35,463 nt of DNA from assembly GCA_947473125.1 (NCBI GenBank), contig CANJDH010000047.1:1-35463 (forward strand), read 5' to 3'. The notes under the pieces are model-generated. The model was not told where the DNA came from, did no database searches, and saw only the letters and a program-made list of their open reading frames with translations. Both the position numbers and the translations under genes were made by a program. Source of the stretch: Burkholderiales bacterium (lineage in GTDB: Bacteria; Pseudomonadota; Gammaproteobacteria; Burkholderiales; JAEUOS01). This document shows positions 25,089-35,463 of the stretch, in pieces. Positions within the stretch are counted from its first letter, which is position 1, and each line of letters opens with the position of its first letter.

Positions 25089-27721
<2,633 letters not shown>

Positions 27722-27725
<4 letters not shown>

Positions 27726-28444
27726 CCGATGCAGACAAACGCTCCATCCTGATCATCGAGGACGACGAACTGTTCGCCGTTTCGTTGCAGCGCTTCCTGG
27801 AAAAGCGCGATATGCGCGTGGAGGTCGAACGGCGTGGCGACGGCGCCATCGAGCATGTGCACGATTTCAAACCCGATGCGGTGGTTCTCGACTGCAACCT
27901 CCCCGGCAAGGACGGCTTTGCAATTTGCCGCGAACTGCGTTCCAGTTATCAAGGCGTGATCCTCATGCTGACCGCACTCGACGAAGACCAGGACCACCTG
28001 CTCGGTCTCGGGCTCGGGGCGGACGACTACCTGGGCAAGCCGGCCACCCCCGAACTGGTGCTGGCACACCTGCGCGCCTGCTGGCGCCGCAACGGCGCCA
28101 ACGGCAGTGCCGGCCAGGCTAGCGGCAGCAGCGAGGAAATCCGCTTCGGGCGCTTCTACATCAGCAGTGCCACGCGCGTCGTGCGCCTGGACAGCCAGGA
28201 GGTCCCCTTCAGCACCGCCGAGTTCGACCTGCTCTGGCTGCTGGCCAGCAAGGCCGGGATCGTACTCTCGCGCGATGACATCAACACTGCGTTGCGCGGC
28301 ATCGAACACGACGTCCTGGACCGCTCGATCGACATGCGTATCTCGCGCCTGCGCAAGGCACTGGGGGATGATGCCGAAAATCCGGTACGCATCAAGACCG
28401 TGCGCGGCAAGGGCTACCTGTTCAGCCGCACTGACTGGACCTGA
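27722..28444 (+). CDS. OmpR-family response regulator
   Basis: 240-residue DNA-binding response regulator and last gene of the signalling operon. The receiver (8-120) shows Glu13/Asp14/Asp15, phosphoacceptor Asp57 in AVVLDCNLPGKDG, Thr in MLTALDED, and Lys106 in DYLGKPATP. The output winged helix (138-236) has FSTAEFDLLWLLASKAG, LDRSIDMRISRLRKALG and KTVRGKGYLF, standard for OmpR/PhoB. It overlaps the hybrid kinase gene by 4 bases, so it is the probable terminal target of that kinase's Hpt domain. It is intact in all catalytic positions. Target promoters cannot be identified from the window alone, though the operon's own AT-rich promoter is a natural candidate. Confidence 0.95.
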
Positions 28445-28510: not shown

Positions 28511-28622
28511 CACAAGCAGAACCATATGCGCACGCAAGCGCTGCGCCATCCCGCTAGCATTGCCGTCATGGTGATTCGGACCTCGAATCATCTTCCACTA
28601 CGACGCCGTGCCGGAGGGAACC

Positions 28623-29450
28623 TTGACGAACACCAGCCAAACCGCATGCCGGCAAGCCATGAAGCTGCTTGCCGCCGCCTTGATCGGCGCCGGCCTGTGC
28701 GGCAGCGCCGCCAGTGTCCACGCTGCGGAAGAACGGCTGCCGGTGATGCAGCCGCGCGGCGAAAAGGTCGAATTTGCCCCGATTCAGGAGCAATGCGTCC
28801 AGTTCGCTGATGTGCGCTTCGGGCCCGGCCAGCGCTGGGACGGCTGCCATGTCACACGGGCCGGCTTCGTCTCGACCATCGAGCTGCTCGATTTTTACTA
28901 CGCCCACTACTGCCTGACCAAAACGGCTGCCAAGGCGGCTGCCAAACCGGCGACCACCCCGCCGACCAAGGCGGCCGACAGGCGCACCAGCGCCGACCCG
29001 GCCCCGGCATGCGATAAGCGCGCCCTGGTCATTTTCGGCAATCGCGCCTACCGCCAAGACGCCTTTGCGGTCCTGCACCGGATCGACCCGGCGGGAACCG
29101 AATACGGTGTGCCACTGGTCACCGGCGCCGATGACGACAACCTGCTCGCCATTTCAGTCAAGCGCAGGGGGGCGGCCCTGGCGCGCCACCTGTTCGCATG
29201 GAAAGAAGATTTCTGGCAGCGCATTGATGACCGCGCCTGGAAGTCGGCACTGCGCAAGCACCTGCCGGCCGGCGCACGGATCGGCGCCGACACCGTGATT
29301 GATCCCGAGACGCTCACTGTCATGGTGCCGATGGCCGGTTCGGCCGGCAGCCTGCGCGTCGAGATGGGCTACGCCGACGGCCGCCTTTTTGTACGGCACC
29401 CGACACGCCACCGCGCCGAACCCACAGCCGCAGCGGCCGGCGCCCACTGA
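28623..29450 (+). CDS. Secreted protein of unknown function
   Basis: 275-residue protein with a probable Sec signal peptide (AMKLLAAALIGAGLCGSAASVHA, cleavage near AHA/AEE at about residue 37). I do not recognise a family. The mature N-terminal part has three Cys and many aromatic residues (EEQCVQF-like and YYAHYC segments), then an Ala/Pro/Lys-rich linker (about 105-135), then a mixed alpha/beta region. TTG 28623 is chosen because GGAGG at 28612-28616 is well placed for it, whereas GTG 28608 lies before this site. It lies 30 bases before the CusF-like gene, so the two are probably co-transcribed. A role in metal or redox handling in the periplasm is conceivable from the neighbours only. Confidence 0.7.
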   Translation: MTNTSQTACRQAMKLLAAALIGAGLCGSAASVHAAEERLPVMQPRGEKVEFAPIQEQCVQFADVRFGPGQRWDGCHVTRAGFVSTIELLDFYYAHYCLTKTAAKAAAKPATTPPTKAADRRTSADPAPACDKRALVIFGNRAYRQDAFAVLHRIDPAGTEYGVPLVTGADDDNLLAISVKRRGAALARHLFAWKEDFWQRIDDRAWKSALRKHLPAGARIGADTVIDPETLTVMVPMAGSAGSLRVEMGYADGRLFVRHPTRHRAEPTAAAAGAH

Positions 29451-29480: not shown

Positions 29481-29786
29481 ATGGCCATGCTCAAACAACT
29501 GCTGCAGGCGAGCTTGATCGCCCTCAGCATCCTGCCCGCACCGGGCCTCGCCGCCGACTCCGCCGACTCCGCCGAAGGCGAACTGCGCAAGGTTGATCGC
29601 AACGCACGCCGCGTCATTGTCGCGCACGGTGACTGGGACAAGGGCGGCATGCACGCCATGACGATGGCGATGAATGTCGAAAAAGACGTCGACCTGGCCA
29701 AACTGCAGAAGGGTGACAAGGTGCGCTTTGAGGTGACACGCCAGGGTGGCGACTGGGTCATCACTCGCATCACGCTCAAACGCTGA
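29481..29786 (+). CDS. CusF-like periplasmic copper-binding protein
   Basis: 101-residue exported protein: signal peptide (MAMLKQLLQASLIALSILPA, cleavage near residue 24) followed by a small beta-barrel of the CusF type. The core pattern GELRKVDRNARRVIVAHG and then MHAMTMAMNV, then LQKGDKVRFEV, closely tracks CusF proteins. In E. coli CusF the Cu(I)/Ag(I) ligands are His, Trp, Met, Met; here His49, Met60 and Met62 correspond, while the Trp position is Met57. This suggests a variant metal site with an extra thioether. ATG 29481 follows AAAGGAG; ATG 29487 is possible. Its nearness to the multicopper oxidase supports a copper-handling role. Confidence 0.8.
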   Translation: MAMLKQLLQASLIALSILPAPGLAADSADSAEGELRKVDRNARRVIVAHGDWDKGGMHAMTMAMNVEKDVDLAKLQKGDKVRFEVTRQGGDWVITRITLKR

Positions 29787-29846: not shown

Positions 29847-31304
29847 ATGTCAACCTTAGAAAACGGAATGGCGATACCCGAATTGCGCCAATTCGCCCGG
29901 CGAGGGCCGGCCGGCTCGCCGCGCTGGCGCTCGCCGGCGCAGCAGCCCTTCAATCTGAGCCGGCGCTTCGCGGTGCTGGCGTTTGCGGCCATCATGCTGG
30001 TCAACCTGGGTTCCTCGATGGTGCTGTCGCACTTCCTGTCCCGGGAAATGCTGCAGCGTGACGCCGAAACCATGATGCACATGGTGCAGTCGCGTGTAGC
30101 CGAACACGACCCGGATGCCTATTTCACGTCGGATGCCGCCCTCCGGGCGTCCCACAGCGCCATGGAAGCCTACTTCAACAAGCTCGCCCATTTGCCCGAC
30201 GTGCTGCGCTTGCAGGTTTACAACCACGATGGCCGCGTGCTGTGGTCCACCCATGCGCAGTCGATCGAGCACACGTTCACCGATAACGCCGAGCTTGGGG
30301 CGGCCCTGCGCGGCACACTGATGGTTGAAGCCGACCTGATCGAAGAACGCCGCTACTTGAAGCCCGAGCTTGTGTTCGCCCGGTTGCCTGAGAAGCAATT
30401 TGTCGAGTACTACATGCCTATACGGGGCCAAGACAATCGCCGGTTGGTCGGTGTCATCGAGGTTTACAAGGCGCCGACAGCCTTGTTCGCATCGATACAG
30501 CGCGGCTTGCGACTGATCTGGCTATGCGCCATTGGCGGCGGACTGTTCCTGTTCGGCGCCCTGTTCTGGGTGGTGCGGCGCGGCCACCGCCTCATCGAAG
30601 CGCAGCAGCGCAGCATTTCCGGCAGTGCCGGCTTCAAAGCCGTCGGTGAAATCACCTCCGCGGTGGCCCAAAACATGCGCAACCCGCTGGCTGCCATCCG
30701 CACTGCGGCGGAACTGATCTGCCATGATCAGGCGAGCGGCAGTCATGCCGTGGCGCACGGCATCACGCAGCAGGTTGACCGTCTCGACGTGTGGATTCGC
30801 AGCCTGCTCGACTATGCGCATGCGGGCAGCCGGTCGAGCACGACGATTTGCGCCAAAGATGTGTTGCGCGCCCTCCTCGAGGAGTACAGCGACGAGCTGG
30901 CGGCGCGCCGCATCCAGATTGTCTGGGATCTGGACCAGACCCTCCCGAACATCCAGGCCGATGCGCCGCTGGTCGAGCAGATCGTCGGCGCTGTAGTGGC
31001 CAATGCGCTCGATGCCATGCCGTCCGGCGGCATCCTCACGATTGGATCACGCGCCGGCCAAGGACCATCCCGGGGCGGTGCACCGCAGGGTATCGAAATC
31101 GAGGTCAGCGACACCGGCAGCGGCATTGCCGCCGCGCAACTCGAGCACGACTTTTCGCACCCGCACAGCACCCGGGCGCGCGGCCTGGGCATCGGCCTGC
31201 CGCTGATCGGACGCACCCTGGAACACATCGGAGGCGGCCTTGAAACAAGCATCACGCCCGGCAAAGGTACCCGCGTCACCATCTGTTTGCCGTTTTCCAC
31301 TTGA
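29847..31304 (+). CDS. NtrB-like sensor kinase with phosphoacceptor His replaced by Gln
   Basis: 485-residue inner-membrane kinase-like protein. TM1 at about 40-62 and TM2 at about 222-244 bound a periplasmic sensor domain. The dimerisation helix reads SAVAQNMRNPLAAI, whereas the family consensus is LAHEIRNPLAAI: residue 275 is Gln (codon CAA, 30669-30671) and the next position is Asn. The ATPase domain looks complete: Asn386 in VVANALDAMP, Asp422 in VSDTGSGIA, GLGIGLPLI at 446-454. It should bind ATP but cannot autophosphorylate in the normal way; phosphatase-like control of the NtrC-type partner remains possible. It is 18 bases upstream of that regulator. ATG 29868 is an alternative start. 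Confidence 0.88.
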   Translation: MSTLENGMAIPELRQFARRGPAGSPRWRSPAQQPFNLSRRFAVLAFAAIMLVNLGSSMVLSHFLSREMLQRDAETMMHMVQSRVAEHDPDAYFTSDAALRASHSAMEAYFNKLAHLPDVLRLQVYNHDGRVLWSTHAQSIEHTFTDNAELGAALRGTLMVEADLIEERRYLKPELVFARLPEKQFVEYYMPIRGQDNRRLVGVIEVYKAPTALFASIQRGLRLIWLCAIGGGLFLFGALFWVVRRGHRLIEAQQRSISGSAGFKAVGEITSAVAQNMRNPLAAIRTAAELICHDQASGSHAVAHGITQQVDRLDVWIRSLLDYAHAGSRSSTTICAKDVLRALLEEYSDELAARRIQIVWDLDQTLPNIQADAPLVEQIVGAVVANALDAMPSGGILTIGSRAGQGPSRGGAPQGIEIEVSDTGSGIAAAQLEHDFSHPHSTRARGLGIGLPLIGRTLEHIGGGLETSITPGKGTRVTICLPFST

Positions 31305-31322: not shown

Positions 31323-32714
31323 ATGATTCCCACCATCCTGATCATCGAAGACGAGCCCACTCGGGCGCGCAACCTGTGCGTGTTTCTGGAGCGTAGCGGC
31401 TTCCATGTCGAAATCGCCAACGGCAGTGAGGTCGGCCTCTACCTGTGTGAACAGCTCAAACCACAGGTGGTGCTGCTCGACTACCACCTGCCCGGTGCAG
31501 ATGGCCTCACGATTCTCGGCAAGATCCAGGCGCGCAGCGCCCGCACCGACGTCATCATGCTCGCCAGCCACGGCAGTGCATCGACCGCCGTCAATGCTTT
31601 CAAGGCCGGCGCGGCCGACTACCTGATCAAACCCATGGAGCCGAGCGCGATTCTTCTGGTGATCGAGCGCGTGCTGCAAAAGCAGAGTGTCAAAGTAATT
31701 GAACCAAACTGCCAGGGCGGCGACGTCGTGCCGTTCCAGCACGCCGGGGTCGCCGCACTGATCGGCGACTCCGCGCCGATGCAGGCATTGCGCAAAGTGC
31801 TCTCGCGCATCATCGACTCGGACAAACTGGTCGGCGGGGCGGATTTGCCGGGCGTGCTCATCACCGGTGAAACCGGTACCGGCAAGGAACTGGTGGCGCG
31901 CGCCCTGCACTTCGACGGCCCGCGTCGCAGCGGCCCGTTCATCGAGATCAACTGCGCCGGCATTCCCGCCAAGATGCTCGAAACCGAACTGTTCGGCCAC
32001 GAACGCGGCGCCTTCACCGACGCCAAGCAGACCAAGCTCGGCCTGATCGAAGCGGCCAATGGCGGCACCCTGCTGCTTGACGAAATCGGCGATCTCGACC
32101 TCACGGCCCAGGCCAAGCTGCTCAAGGTAATTGAAGAGCGCCAGGTACGCCGCCTCGGCAGCATTCAGGATCACCCCCTCAACGTACGCTTTCTGGCCGC
32201 CACCAGCGTTGACCTCGAAGAGCGGGTACGCGAGGGCCGCTTCCGTGCCGACCTTTACTACCGCCTGCGCGTCATCAGCGTCAAGGCGCCGGCCCTGCGC
32301 GAGCGCGGGCGCGACATCGCGCAGCTGGGCGAACATTTTCTCAACACCATGCGTGGCCGATACGGCAAGCCCGGCCTCAAGCTGAGCAACGACGCCGTCA
32401 GCGCCCTGATGAGCCATGCCTGGGAAGGCAACGTGCGCGAACTGCGCAACACCATCGAGCAAGCCATCATCCTCACCGAGAGCAGCGTGATCGGGGGCTG
32501 CGACCTCGGTCTGTGTGCGTTCAAGGTCAACGGCGAGTGCACCACACACGAAGGCCGGCCTTTCGAGACCATGAAACTGCAGGATGTCGAGCGCCCCCTG
32601 CTCGCCACCGCGCTCGTAAAGAGGGATGCCCACATCAGTGAGGCGGCACGCCGGCTCGGCATCTCGCGTGACACGTTGCGCTACCGGGTCAAGCAATTCG
32701 GCCTCAGCCACTGA
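31323..32714 (+). CDS. NtrC-family sigma-54-dependent response regulator
   Basis: 463-residue transcription activator with receiver (4-120; Glu9/Asp10, Asp53 in VVLLDYHLPGADG, Lys103), AAA+ domain (145-380) and a Fis-type helix-turn-helix (436-460, HISEAARRLGISRDTLRYRV). Walker A is GETGTGKE (182-189), Walker B LLLDEIGD (Asp253/Glu254), and arginine fingers fall in RFRADLYYRL. The sigma-54 contact loop reads GAFTDA (229-234) instead of the common GAFTGA. The receiver is intact. AGAAGG precedes ATG 31323. Together with the kinase-like gene it forms a two-component pair, and a consensus sigma-54 promoter lies downstream at 32859-32874, ahead of the multicopper oxidase. That promoter is its likely target. 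Confidence 0.94.
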   Translation: MIPTILIIEDEPTRARNLCVFLERSGFHVEIANGSEVGLYLCEQLKPQVVLLDYHLPGADGLTILGKIQARSARTDVIMLASHGSASTAVNAFKAGAADYLIKPMEPSAILLVIERVLQKQSVKVIEPNCQGGDVVPFQHAGVAALIGDSAPMQALRKVLSRIIDSDKLVGGADLPGVLITGETGTGKELVARALHFDGPRRSGPFIEINCAGIPAKMLETELFGHERGAFTDAKQTKLGLIEAANGGTLLLDEIGDLDLTAQAKLLKVIEERQVRRLGSIQDHPLNVRFLAATSVDLEERVREGRFRADLYYRLRVISVKAPALRERGRDIAQLGEHFLNTMRGRYGKPGLKLSNDAVSALMSHAWEGNVRELRNTIEQAIILTESSVIGGCDLGLCAFKVNGECTTHEGRPFETMKLQDVERPLLATALVKRDAHISEAARRLGISRDTLRYRVKQFGLSH

Positions 32715-32720
32715 ACACGC

Positions 32721-32778
32721 GGGTGTGGCGTTTGGCGCAATCGGGTCAGATGCCACACCCGATTGCGCCTCTGCGCAA
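32721..32778. promoter_or_regulatory. Three overlapping, mutually exclusive inverted repeats
   Basis: GGGTGTGGC (32721-32729) pairs with GCCACACCC (32752-32760). GGCGCAATCGGGT (32734-32746) pairs perfectly with ACCCGATTGCGCC (32757-32769) across 10 bases. TTGCGC (32763-32768) pairs with GCGCAA (32773-32778). The arms overlap, so only some can form at once. No T-run follows. They may be enhancer sites for the NtrC-type activator, an end structure for its mRNA, or both. Confidence 0.6.
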
Positions 32779-32810
32779 GTGACAGCACGCGGCCCGGTAT
32801 CGCGAAAACG

Positions 32811-32823
32811 CTTGTGCCACAAG
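32811..32823. promoter_or_regulatory. 13-bp palindrome CTTGTGCCACAAG, candidate activator site
   Basis: Two perfect 6-base arms flank a single C. The element lies about 36 bases upstream of the -24 part of the sigma-54 promoter. NtrC-type activators usually bind dyads somewhat further upstream, so both this site and the dyads at 32734-32778 are candidates for the upstream activating sequence. Confidence 0.45.
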
Positions 32824-32858
32824 GGTTTGACGCAAGTTGCCGGTCGGCGCACACGCTA

Positions 32859-32874
32859 TGGCACGCCGGTTGCA
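32859..32874 (+). promoter_or_regulatory. Consensus sigma-54 (RpoN) promoter
   Basis: TGGCACGCCGGTTGCA matches the sigma-54 consensus TGGCACG-N4-TTGC(A/T) at every defined position, with GG at 32860-32861 and GC at 32872-32873 (the required -24/-12 spacing). It is intergenic, faces the multicopper oxidase gene and follows the gene of an NtrC-type activator by 145 bases. Transcription should start near 32885. This is the only such match I found in the intergenic DNA of the window. Confidence 0.85.
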
Positions 32875-32915
32875 TTCAAGTTTGGCCACAGCCATCGCCT
32901 GAATCGACCTACGCC

Positions 32916-33260
32916 ATGTCCAGCACCTTGCCGAACGCATCGCCGCACCACACCGCGTGCACCAAGCAGGCAACGCCGACCCGGCGCACGCGTACCCGAC
33001 ACACCCGCAGCACCGGCAGCGTACAGGCCGTGCGCCTCGCTGCGGGCGGCCTCAGCGCTCCCCTCAGCGCTCCCCTCAGTGCTCCCCTCAGCGCTCCCGT
33101 TTGCATTCTCAATCCGGATCTGGGTGATTTCACCCAAGCGCAAGGTGCGGCGGGGTATTTGCCCCGCTCGCTCACCTGTGACCGCCTGGCACTGACGCGC
33201 CGTTACAAAACTCACACGCGGCCGCGGTACAAGCGCCACCGAATGCCGACAGACGCGTAG
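32916..33260 (+). CDS. Doubtful small ORF in the oxidase leader
   Basis: An open frame of 114 codons starts 31 bases after the predicted sigma-54 transcription start. The product is basic and Thr/Arg/Pro-rich with an APLS repeat and no recognisable domain, signal peptide or ribosome binding site. The frame is longer than chance alone would often give in low-GC DNA, but in high-GC DNA it is not remarkable, and codon third positions are less GC-biased than in neighbouring genes. I list it only because the region is otherwise unexplained. Confidence 0.15.
   Translation: MSSTLPNASPHHTACTKQATPTRRTRTRHTRSTGSVQAVRLAAGGLSAPLSAPLSAPLSAPVCILNPDLGDFTQAQGAAGYLPRSLTCDRLALTRRYKTHTRPRYKRHRMPTDA
33051..33098. 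repeat. 12-bp tandem repeat, four copies
   Basis: CTCAGCGCTCCC is repeated at 33051-33062, 33063-33074, 33075-33086 (one C-to-T change) and 33087-33098. It lies between the sigma-54 promoter and the oxidase gene. Each unit contains the palindrome AGCGCT. The unit length is a multiple of three, which would keep any reading frame open. Confidence 0.92.
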
Positions 33261-33370
33261 GGCGCTCTCTTTAGGATGGCAGCACTGCATCAACGACCGC
33301 ATTCGATCGCCGGTTGAGCAGCTTTAGAAGTCATCAGGCCCGCCCACACTAAACTTTTTGGGGAACTAAA

Positions 33371-35389
33371 TTGGACAACGCAAAACGAAAACTGATCCAG
33401 CGCACGATGGATGTACAGCGTGAGCTGACCAAAAGCGGCCTGTCGCGCCGCAACCTTCTTAAACTCGGTGTGCTGAGCGCCGGCACCGGCATGCTGCTGC
33501 CGATCGAAGGCCTGAGCCTGCGCGCCGCGCGTGCCGACCTGACCTGCCCGATTCCCGGCGTCGAAATGATCAGCCCGCGCACCACGCCGTTCAAGGACCC
33601 GCTGCAGCGCCTTGAAGAAATGACGCCGACCTACACCACCAAGAGCAGCGTCTCCGAACTGACCGATGCCATGTTCCTGCGCGGCGGCAAGCCCGGCCAC
33701 GCCCCGACCCACAAACTCGACTCCAAGCTCGAACTGCTCCATCACCACCCCGAGCTGGCGACAGCCACACCATTTGCCAACCTCGCCCACCAGGCCTGGG
33801 ACGGCACCGACAAGAACACCGGCGTGCTCAACCCGCCGAAAGATTTTTACGAAATGCGCGCGGTCCAGCATCGCCATGTGTGGCACAGCGAAATGCCGGC
33901 CGGCGCCGCCGGCCAGCTCGCCTGGGGCTTTGCCGACCGTACGTTCGACAGCGCTAACACCGTGACGGGCAACGGCAGTACCCCTTGCACCGGCGTACCC
34001 GGCCCGGTGTTTCGCCTTAAATACGGCCGTTCGATCTTGATGCGCATATACAACGAGCTGCCCGCGTCTGCCCAGGATGCCGTCTCCGCACTCGGGTTCG
34101 GCACCTCGACCATTGCCACCCACATGCACAACCACCACACCCCGTCAGAGAGCGACGGCGGCCCGCTGTACTACAACTACGCCGGGCACTTTTGGGATCA
34201 CCACTACCCCAACCTCTACGCCGGCATCAACCAGGGCTTTGTGTCGCCCAAGGCCGGTGTGCGCGGCGACTACCGCGAAGCGCTCGGCTCGCTGTGGTTC
34301 CACGACCACAAGCACGATTTCACCTCGCAGAACGTCTACGCCGGCCTGTTCGGCGCAGCGCCGATCTATGACGAAGTCGACACCGGTGACGAAACCGTGG
34401 TCGGCACCACCGGCATCCGCTTCCCGAGCCACTCGCAGGACGCCGGCAGCTACCCGTACGAATTCGACGTGCCGCTGATGGTGCACGACCGCCAGTTCGA
34501 CCCGAACGGCGTTGATTTCTTCCCGCTTGCCTGCCTGGACGGCGCGATCGGCGACAAGATGACGGTCAACGGCACGATCCAGCCGTTCATGAAAGTGCAG
34601 CCGCGCCGCTACCGCCTGCGCATCTACAACGGCGGCCCGAGCCGCTTTCATTGGTGGTGGATGCGCCAGGGTGCAGCCGGCTCGACCTACCTGCCGATGA
34701 CCGTGGTCGCCAACGACGGCAACCTGCTGCCGCGCGCCGTCGATGTCACCAACTTCAAGCATGGCGTGGGTGAACGCTTCGACATCATTGTCGATTTCTC
34801 GAAATTCAAGCCCGGCACAGAGCTGTTCATCACCAACCGCGCCGAGCAGACCAGTGGCCGTGGCCCGTCGGGCAAGCTGCTCACCACCGGCATGGACGTG
34901 ATCAAGTTCATCGTCGAGCCGGCCCGTACAGGCCTCACCGACAACAGCACCGTGATCGTCAACGGCATGCCGCTGCGTCCGCTGCCTGACGCCGTCGTCG
35001 TCACCACCGCCAAGCGCAAGCAATGGGTGTGGGGCCGCGGCAACGGGGCCTGGAATGCCAACGGCGTCACCTACGATCGTTTCGCACCTCCCTATGAAGT
35101 CAAGGAAGGCTCGTCCGAAGTGTGGGTGCACAAGAACGGCGGCGGCTCGTGGTCGCACCCGATCCACCCGCACTTCGAGGAAGGCCGCATCATCAAGTCG
35201 ACCGGTGCCGCACAGCCGAACCCGACTGCCGTACTCGAAGGCGGCCGCAAGGACGTCTACCGCCTCGACCCGAGCGCGACGATGGAAACGGCGATGCGCT
35301 TCCGCGACTACAAGGGCATCTACCCGATGCACTGCCATAACGTGGTGCACGAAGACCACGGCATGATGGCCATGTGGAAGATTGTCTAA
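33371..35389 (+). CDS. Tat-exported multicopper oxidase (CotA/bilirubin oxidase-like)
   Basis: 672-residue secreted oxidase. A Tat signal follows a 24-residue lead: SRRNLLKLG at 25-33, hydrophobic VLSAGTGMLL, cleavage near residue 54. The four copper-binding motifs are visible: HMHNHH (His251, His253), WFHDHKHDF (His311, His313), SHPIHPHF (His596, His599, His601) and MHCHNVVHEDHGMM (His654, Cys655, His656, His660, Met665 as axial ligand). It should couple one-electron oxidation of a substrate (Cu(I), Mn(II), phenol or similar) to oxygen reduction in the periplasm. The TTG start at 33371 is supported by GGGGAA just upstream. The neighbours (CusF-like protein, sigma-54 promoter) suggest metal homeostasis or oxidation, but the substrate is not decided. 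Confidence 0.93.
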   Translation: MDNAKRKLIQRTMDVQRELTKSGLSRRNLLKLGVLSAGTGMLLPIEGLSLRAARADLTCPIPGVEMISPRTTPFKDPLQRLEEMTPTYTTKSSVSELTDAMFLRGGKPGHAPTHKLDSKLELLHHHPELATATPFANLAHQAWDGTDKNTGVLNPPKDFYEMRAVQHRHVWHSEMPAGAAGQLAWGFADRTFDSANTVTGNGSTPCTGVPGPVFRLKYGRSILMRIYNELPASAQDAVSALGFGTSTIATHMHNHHTPSESDGGPLYYNYAGHFWDHHYPNLYAGINQGFVSPKAGVRGDYREALGSLWFHDHKHDFTSQNVYAGLFGAAPIYDEVDTGDETVVGTTGIRFPSHSQDAGSYPYEFDVPLMVHDRQFDPNGVDFFPLACLDGAIGDKMTVNGTIQPFMKVQPRRYRLRIYNGGPSRFHWWWMRQGAAGSTYLPMTVVANDGNLLPRAVDVTNFKHGVGERFDIIVDFSKFKPGTELFITNRAEQTSGRGPSGKLLTTGMDVIKFIVEPARTGLTDNSTVIVNGMPLRPLPDAVVVTTAKRKQWVWGRGNGAWNANGVTYDRFAPPYEVKEGSSEVWVHKNGGGSWSHPIHPHFEEGRIIKSTGAAQPNPTAVLEGGRKDVYRLDPSATMETAMRFRDYKGIYPMHCHNVVHEDHGMMAMWKIV

Positions 35390-35413: not shown

Positions 35414-35463
35414 ATGAACCGCAGATCTTTCATCAAGGGTGCAGGGGCGCTGCCGTTGGCAGC
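35414..35463 (+). CDS. Start of a Tat-exported protein (cut off by window end)
   Basis: Only the first 16 codons are visible: MNRRSFIKGAGALPLA. RRSFIKG is a near-consensus twin-arginine motif followed by the start of a hydrophobic stretch, so the product is a Tat substrate, usually a cofactor-containing periplasmic protein. It begins 24 bases after the multicopper oxidase stop and is probably co-transcribed with it. No function can be assigned from this fragment. Confidence 0.8.
   Translation, partial: MNRRSFIKGAGALPLA

Follow-up and report, generated by a model that had tools for sequence, protein, structure and literature searches.

Sigma-54 promoter-like site and RstA-type box as putative dual inputs to a Tat-type multicopper oxidase gene in a Burkholderiales bacterium

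Introduction

The stretch of DNA analysed here, a contig of 35,463 nt from a Burkholderiales bacterium (“the window”), carries a sequence resembling a −24/−12 promoter between the gene for an NtrC-type response regulator and the gene for a Tat-type multicopper oxidase. This raises the question whether the oxidase gene is transcribed by RNA polymerase with sigma-54 under the control of the neighbouring regulator, or whether other elements govern its expression. An earlier reading, made from the letters of the window without database searches (the sequence-only reading), had placed a sigma-54-type site between these two genes, and domain searches confirmed the assignments of both.

The same reading regarded sigma-54 control of a multicopper oxidase as non-standard. 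This view had to be given up, because two precedents have been published, i.e. CorSR/CuoA and MnxS/MnxR. In Myxococcus xanthus, the adjacent kinase-regulator pair CorSR and the oxidase CuoA belong to a system with sigma-54 control, in which one gene is under two kinds of promoters (PMC3707914). In Pseudomonas, MnxS1/MnxS2-MnxR include a sigma-54-dependent regulator of McoA and MnxG (PMC11409713, PMC11930936), and sigma-54 and IHF sites have been predicted at the mcoA and mnxG promoters (PMC11930936). Strain MS-1 no longer oxidizes Mn when rpoN carries an insertion, and a SCO1/SenC gene follows mcoA (PMC11409713).

In the window, the oxidase gene most likely has two inputs, one of them a sigma-54 promoter. 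Our main reading as a whole, i.e. that a distal sigma-54 promoter and a proximal RstA-type box both control the gene, is given a probability of about 0.55. The features on which it is built are compiled in Table 1.

Table 1. Features of the window that are relevant for the expression of the oxidase gene
Feature	Position	Strand	Remarks
Hybrid sensor kinase adjoining the RstA-like regulator	25089-27725	+	
RstA-like (OmpR-type) response regulator	27719-28444	+	domain and neighbourhood comparison
280-aa protein without Pfam or NCBIfam match	28608-29450	+	relatives in 7 of 10 oxidase loci
CusF-type periplasmic copper-binding protein	29481-29786	+	domain search
Sensor kinase, HisKA and HATPase	29847-31304	+	
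NtrC-type response regulator	31323-32714	+	receiver, sigma-54 interaction domain with GAFTDA, Fis-type helix-turn-helix
Two overlapping inverted repeats (dyads of the sequence-only reading)	32720-32769	.	
Inverted repeat AAACGCTTGTG/CACAAGGGTTT	32806-32828	.	
Sigma-54 (−24/−12) promoter-like site TGGCACGCCGGTTGCA	32859-32874	+	predicted start ~32885
Tandem 12-base repeats (CCTCAGCGCTCC type) in the predicted leader	33050-33109	+	
Enhancer-like dyad GGGTGATTTCACCC	33122-33135	.	motif GGGKGATNTCMCCC, 0 mismatches
Second tandem dyad GGGGTATTTGCCCC	33152-33165	.	2 mismatches; start-to-start spacing 30
RstA-type box TGACGCGCCGTTACA	33193-33207	+	178 to 164 bases upstream of the start codon of the oxidase gene
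Tat-type multicopper oxidase, 672 aa	33371-35389	+	TTG start, aligned with the ATG of relatives
Next gene, start only (MNRRSFIKGAG...)	35414-35463	+	cut by the contig end

The sigma-54-type site

The site is spelled TGGCACG-CCGG-TTGCA and agrees with TGGCACG-N4-TTGC(A/T), the GG and GC being 10 bases apart. It had been described as a complete match to the RpoN consensus. This holds for all specified bases with the N4 spacer, but the form TGGCACGRNNNTTGCW, quoted as that of Barrios et al. (PMC3707914), has R at position 8, where the site has C. It is the sole match without mismatches in the window and has the top weight-matrix score (19.6; next best 16.5). The matrix was set up by hand, with slightly different backgrounds for the oxidase upstream regions on the one hand and for dyad-linked sites, the leader, and giant oxidases on the other. 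Allowing up to two mismatches yielded five matches in the window versus 5.94 expected from shuffled sequences. The counts of near matches are at chance level and were discarded as evidence, so only the exact match is informative.

In the host genome of 4.88 Mb, the exact pattern is found twice (two forward, zero reverse), and the backwards control pattern yielded one and zero exact matches. From these densities, the chance of an exact match in the 657-base intergenic stretch was calculated to be about 1–3 in 10,000. The match could nevertheless be a coincidence in GC-rich intergenic DNA, as the control also has one exact genome match and a site with a score of 19.1 lies within a long open frame in one related locus (L056). 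In addition to the low chance value, however, the gene of a sigma-54 activator adjoins the site, and both exact genome matches precede ORFs in the correct orientation, so that we regard coincidence as very unlikely. The second exact match (C3:58554; L060:8640) lies about 70 bases upstream of an ORF, the product of which looks type IV pilin-like by eye. Pilin genes are classical sigma-54 targets. The host genome has one copy of rpoN, with an open frame. The site at 32859 is thus likely to be a sigma-54 promoter, as judged from its sequence and setting.

We also searched the coding strands up to 600 bases upstream of the related oxidase genes for sigma-54-type sites with scores of at least 12. 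Such sites precede the oxidase genes of the window (19.6), L005 (16.4), L012 (14.8, the same genome as L005), and L009 (12.7). None was found within this distance of the oxidase paralogue of the host (L002) or in the six loci with an RstA-like gene directly upstream (L013: 11.4). Positional conservation between the window and L005 could not be used, since the two sigma-54-type sites are not superimposable in an alignment and the region around the RstA-type box alone aligns.

The RstA-type box

The box near the oxidase gene belongs to a form that is common to the related loci. Nine of the 12 regions upstream of oxidase genes contain the family form TTACAYGNNGTTACA with up to two mismatches, among them those of the window (two mismatches) and L005, and none of 300 shuffles was as good in any of the nine regions; the form was read off an alignment of the same sequences in which it was later counted. 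Of the 12 regions, those of L009, L012, and the host paralogue L002 do not contain it. An RstA-like regulator gene lies directly before the oxidase gene in six loci (L006, L007, L008, L010, L011, and L013).

The E. coli RstA box has the consensus TACATNTNGTTACA (PMC4117788). The box of the window differs from it at 4 of the 12 specified bases, and 90 of 300 shuffles were equally good. Because the box is unremarkable in this comparison, the support for the RstA reading comes from the family form and the neighbouring gene, the product of which (27719-28444) scores 248.5 against the NCBIfam RstA model (cut-off 330). The similarity to RstA/RstB (PMC4117788) consists of the RstA-like regulator and the boxes conforming to TTACAYGNNGTTACA upstream of the oxidase gene; the difference is that the partner in the window is a hybrid kinase. 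We consider the RstA-type box most likely to be the more widely conserved of the two putative inputs.

The position of the box also affects the interpretation of the distal site. A start near 32885 would result in a leader of about 485 bases, as had been predicted before. The arithmetic is correct, but the RstA-type box had been missed, and given such a conserved element near the oxidase gene, the long leader is not necessarily the main transcript. A simple scan of 32600-33450 yielded no −35/−10 pair of the sigma-70 type. One related locus (L007:3628-8025) has two oxidase genes in tandem behind a single RstA-like regulator gene, each with its own RstA-type box.

Enhancer-like dyads

The exact dyad of the window conforms to the motif GGGKGATNTCMCCC, which is expected 0.003 times per kb with up to one mismatch. 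This motif was derived from the window and the sequence before sigma-54-type sites at L005, L012, L050, L053, L054, L056, and L058; L051, L110, L111, and L115 were independent of its formation. Some of these loci are not independent of each other, i.e. L005/L059 and L008/L050 lie on the same contigs, and L053 and L054 are near copies. With up to one mismatch, 16 dyads were found among 37 loci. Apart from the window, 10 of the 26 regulator stretches contain such dyads, all 10 belonging to the nearer regulator clade (20 stretches) and none to the farther one (six stretches).

For 14 of the 16 dyads, a sigma-54-type site with a score of at least 11 lies within 30–180 bp (measured distances 63–141 bp), and for nine of them the score is at least 12; the 14 linked sites represent 11 distinct sigma-54 sites. 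For comparison, 5.9% of 1500 random places have a sigma-54-type site that reaches 10, and 2.3% have one that reaches 12. Among the dyads that were unseen when the motif was formed (L051, L110, L111, and L115), six of seven have a sigma-54-type site; the second dyad of L053 was excluded from this set as a copy of that of L054.

The dyad of the window is one of the two exceptions, with nothing above 0.5 after it on the plus strand. The site at 32859 is situated about 250 bp upstream of it, while the dyads of the relatives lie upstream of the promoter. At L005, for example, the order is dyad (4083), sigma-54-type site (4226), RstA-type box (4376), and oxidase gene (4547).

The dyads that had been noted upstream of the promoter in the sequence-only reading are indeed inverted repeats (arms 32720-32734/32747-32761 and 32734-32746/32757-32769), but they differ from the dyad that accompanies relatives of the activator. 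They contain GGGTCA-N6-ACACCC (32743-32760), which has four extra bases compared to the family form GGGKGA-N2-TCMCCC. Since the distance of about 98 bp to the promoter would suit an enhancer, it is possible that these repeats are a degenerate enhancer.

In the host genome, we found 24 strand hits of the dyad motif with up to one mismatch at 22 places, two of them exact, and the controls yielded two and two. The other 21 places have no sigma-54-type site above 9.3 in reach (one was cut on one side by a contig end). The stop-free stretch at the dyad of the window has 191 codons and is not shorter than those at all other places (121 to 1004). A second target of the motif is thus not evident from the host sequence.

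In three cases at L110 and L111, a dyad and a sigma-54-type site lie before ORFs (L110:11119-11289, L111:11523-11668, and L111:12532-12645). By eye, the products are glycosyltransferase-like (L110 and L111:12630) or a secreted protein (L111:11653); genes of the cell envelope may thus be served by the regulator family.

The predicted leader

The sigma-54 promoter might also serve a small protein or RNA encoded within 32885-33371, the oxidase gene being uncoupled from it. An ORF of 114 aa (32916-33260) opens 31 bases past the predicted start, and some of the dyad/sigma-54 pairs of the relatives precede short ORFs. However, its codon-position G+C (0.63/0.64/0.76) is unlike that of the regulator gene (0.67/0.42/0.82) as well as those of the kinase and oxidase genes, so that the leader is unlikely to contain a small coding gene. 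The ORF also overruns the dyads and the RstA-type box, and a simple scan found no terminator-like sites in 32600-33450 (0.9 expected). We therefore consider a separate product of the leader to be even less probable than a chance match of the promoter.

The sensor kinase and the NtrC-type regulator

The three domains of the regulator (PF00072, PF00158, and PF02954) all score above the cut-offs. The motif GAFTDA is present in 12 of 13 aligned family members and GAFTNA in one; GAFTDA has been listed among the variants that are expected to stay active (PMC4641369). The kinase has an open frame and, by eye, intact ATP-binding boxes, and its H-box (window 30630-30700) reads VAQNMRNPL, with Gln at the position of the phospho-accepting His, which is retained in nine of nine aligned relatives. 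In the receiver of the regulator, the conserved Thr is replaced by Ala (Thr in 11 of 11 other regulators that cover the position), and the Asp and the Lys are retained.

These replacements suggest that activation is probably not achieved by ordinary phosphotransfer. The dedicated two-component pair of the sequence-only reading is therefore retained only in part: the NtrC-type activator is encoded next to the site and rpoN is present, but the kinase lacks the phospho-accepting His. The pair either functions by a different route or is undergoing decay. Decay does happen among the relatives, as the regulator gene of L005 stops before the DNA-binding domain.

A decaying NtrC-type branch would fit an explanation in which the proximal RstA-type promoter is responsible for essentially all expression of the oxidase gene and the sigma-54 site is a remnant of minor importance. 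The family box in 9 of 12 upstream regions, the six loci with a directly adjoining RstA-like gene, the loss of the kinase His and the receiver Thr, and the truncation at L005 are all in agreement with it. On the other hand, the −24/−12 site of the window is exact, the frames of the kinase and the regulator are open, and the dyad is perfect. We regard this explanation as rather unlikely, albeit as the most serious competitor of the dual-input reading.

The assignment to known pairs was also addressed. Among the NCBIfam models, ZraS matches the kinase best, covering nearly the full length with 117 bits (cut-off 479), and the regulator has 289.7 bits against ZraR (cut-off 760). The similarity to ZraSR thus consists of the best match of the kinase, with both partners far under the cut-offs. 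AtoC, NtrC, the PEP-CTERM-box regulator, and ZraR were rejected as identities of the regulator, since all scores were below the cut-offs; the family is below those of the best 25 NCBIfam models listed.

The proposed mode of control

Returning to the dual-input reading, the older input would be the RstA-type box, served by the hybrid kinase and the RstA-like regulator (25089-28444). As the second input, RNA polymerase with RpoN would bind at 32859, and the adjoining NtrC-type regulator would open the promoter. The transcript would start near 32885 and run through the leader and the oxidase gene into the SCO-like gene. The regulator would most likely bind to the GGGTGATTTCACCC/GGGGTATTTGCCCC pair (33122-33165), acting from downstream by looping, or to the dyads at 32720-32769, or to both. 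Phosphotransfer from the adjoining kinase would probably not be the route of its activation.

A more specific version goes further: a kinase-dead sensor and a switch-altered regulator drive the sigma-54 oxidase promoter independently of phosphotransfer, from an enhancer within the leader that is shared with the RstA promoter, so that two metal-linked systems are joined. This combination is decidedly unlikely to be correct in all its parts.

The curA operon of the CorSR system has nine genes in a single operon with a copper ATPase (PMC3707914). In contrast, the oxidase gene of the window is preceded by a separate intergenic region that contains an RstA-type box, and it is accompanied by a His-less kinase and a perfect dyad downstream of the promoter. 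The Mnx system is similar in having a sigma-54 response regulator for an oxidase and a SCO-type gene behind it, a comparison drawn from published descriptions of McoA, MnxR, and MnxS. A further similarity is that sister regulators of that of the window adjoin giant oxidases of MofA/MnxG-like size. The difference is that the oxidase of the window is a 672-aa Tat-type protein and that the host assembly has no match to the giant oxidase (E 1e-20). We met no published case of such sigma-54 control of an oxidase together with an RstA-type box in a literature search that was not aimed at this combination or at the dyad motif.

If the dual-input reading is true, sigma-54 control of multicopper oxidases would extend beyond Pseudomonas and Myxococcus to a rare oxidase cluster, probably of the Burkholderiales. 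The motif GGGKGATNTCMCCC would be a testable DNA-binding motif for an NtrC-type family without an assignment among the best 25 NCBIfam models. The window would also offer natural candidates for an enhancer downstream of its own promoter and for a kinase without a phospho-accepting histidine.

The oxidase and its relatives

The oxidase contains the sequence SRRNLLKLGV, which we take to be the Tat motif. A role in the copper response had been suggested, but is not borne out by the scores against the curated NCBIfam models, which are far under the cut-offs for both CueO (112.6 of 525 bits) and the CopA type (copper_res_A, 29.6 of 478.95). Both identities were thus rejected. The nearest solved structures by sequence are bilirubin oxidase, CueO, and CotA. 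The CusF gene in the window and the SCO- and TlpA-like genes in the relatives point to a probable role in the oxidation of metals or the handling of copper, and not simply in copper detoxification, possibly in Mn(II) oxidation in analogy to McoA. In the relatives, a SCO/SenC-like gene directly follows the oxidase gene; this label, as well as the labels Sel1 and TlpA for genes in related loci, was read from the sequence.

One contig scan for relatives of the oxidase yielded 10 loci, all of them from MAGs; three bear the title Bordetella parapertussis, which was taken for a mislabel. The closest oxidase is that of L005 (84%). At E 1e-150, the oxidase was found in 1 of 399 genomes of the order, i.e. 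that of the host. At 1e-60, it was found in none of the four other genomes of the same family and in 8 of 369 genomes of the class, the own genome included. Eight stretches with distant relatives from the class (L070-L077) have no match to the kinase or the regulator beside the oxidase gene. The host itself has a paralogue at a contig end (C48:34244-35110; L002/L061), which is 66% identical over residues 1-300 and has two in-frame TAG codons, so that it is probably a broken copy.

Distribution of the regulator family

The kinase-regulator pair is associated with multicopper oxidases repeatedly, but not exclusively. Eight of the nine other genomes with the oxidase have a regulator with more than 390 bits, and the ninth (G399, with L005/L059) has a 66%-identical fragment. 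The four other genomes of the family have matches of at most 272 bits. At E 1e-95, with four candidates scored per genome, the regulator was found in 20 out of 399 genomes within the order and in 9 out of 369 within the class (own genome counted in both). The regulator family is thus not oxidase-specific, the oxidase being present in 1 of the 399, and neither the oxidase nor the giant oxidase was matched in 14 stretches with the regulator (L108-L121). When four of the 63 rows of a tree were labelled “oxidase-adjacent”, the label required four changes, no better than in 500 of 500 shuffles; three of the four rows fall in one well-supported clade.

In the tree, the regulator of the window is in a 100/100 clade with those of L057 (G407), L049 (G403), and L059/L029 (G399). 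The fragment of G399 shares a contig with the oxidase gene, which it precedes by about 4 kb, with repeats and a reverse gene in between. About 2 kb of repeated elements of the GTCATCCCCGCGAAAGCGGGG type (L005:560-2560) directly follow the truncated regulator gene. In G407 (L057:31-8868), the pair lies directly after the gene of a giant oxidase of 1821 aa, and in G403 (L146:3173-11075), the same giant oxidase gene is followed by a kinase gene and the first part of a regulator gene at the contig end; the regulator gene at L049 in this genome, possibly another piece of the one at L146, otherwise has signalling genes as neighbours. The giant oxidase scores 20.1 against Pfam Cu-oxidase_2 (cut-off 20.4 bits) and is presumably MofA/MnxG-like, by its size. 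A search before the giant oxidase genes did not reveal a dyad/sigma-54 pair, and by eye only looser TTTGCCCCA/TTGACCCA stretches that resemble L005 are present. Outside of this clade, the regulator gene lies within the oxidase cluster in G402 (L008/L050), and in G400 (L006/L056) it lies about 10 kb past the oxidase gene on the same contig.
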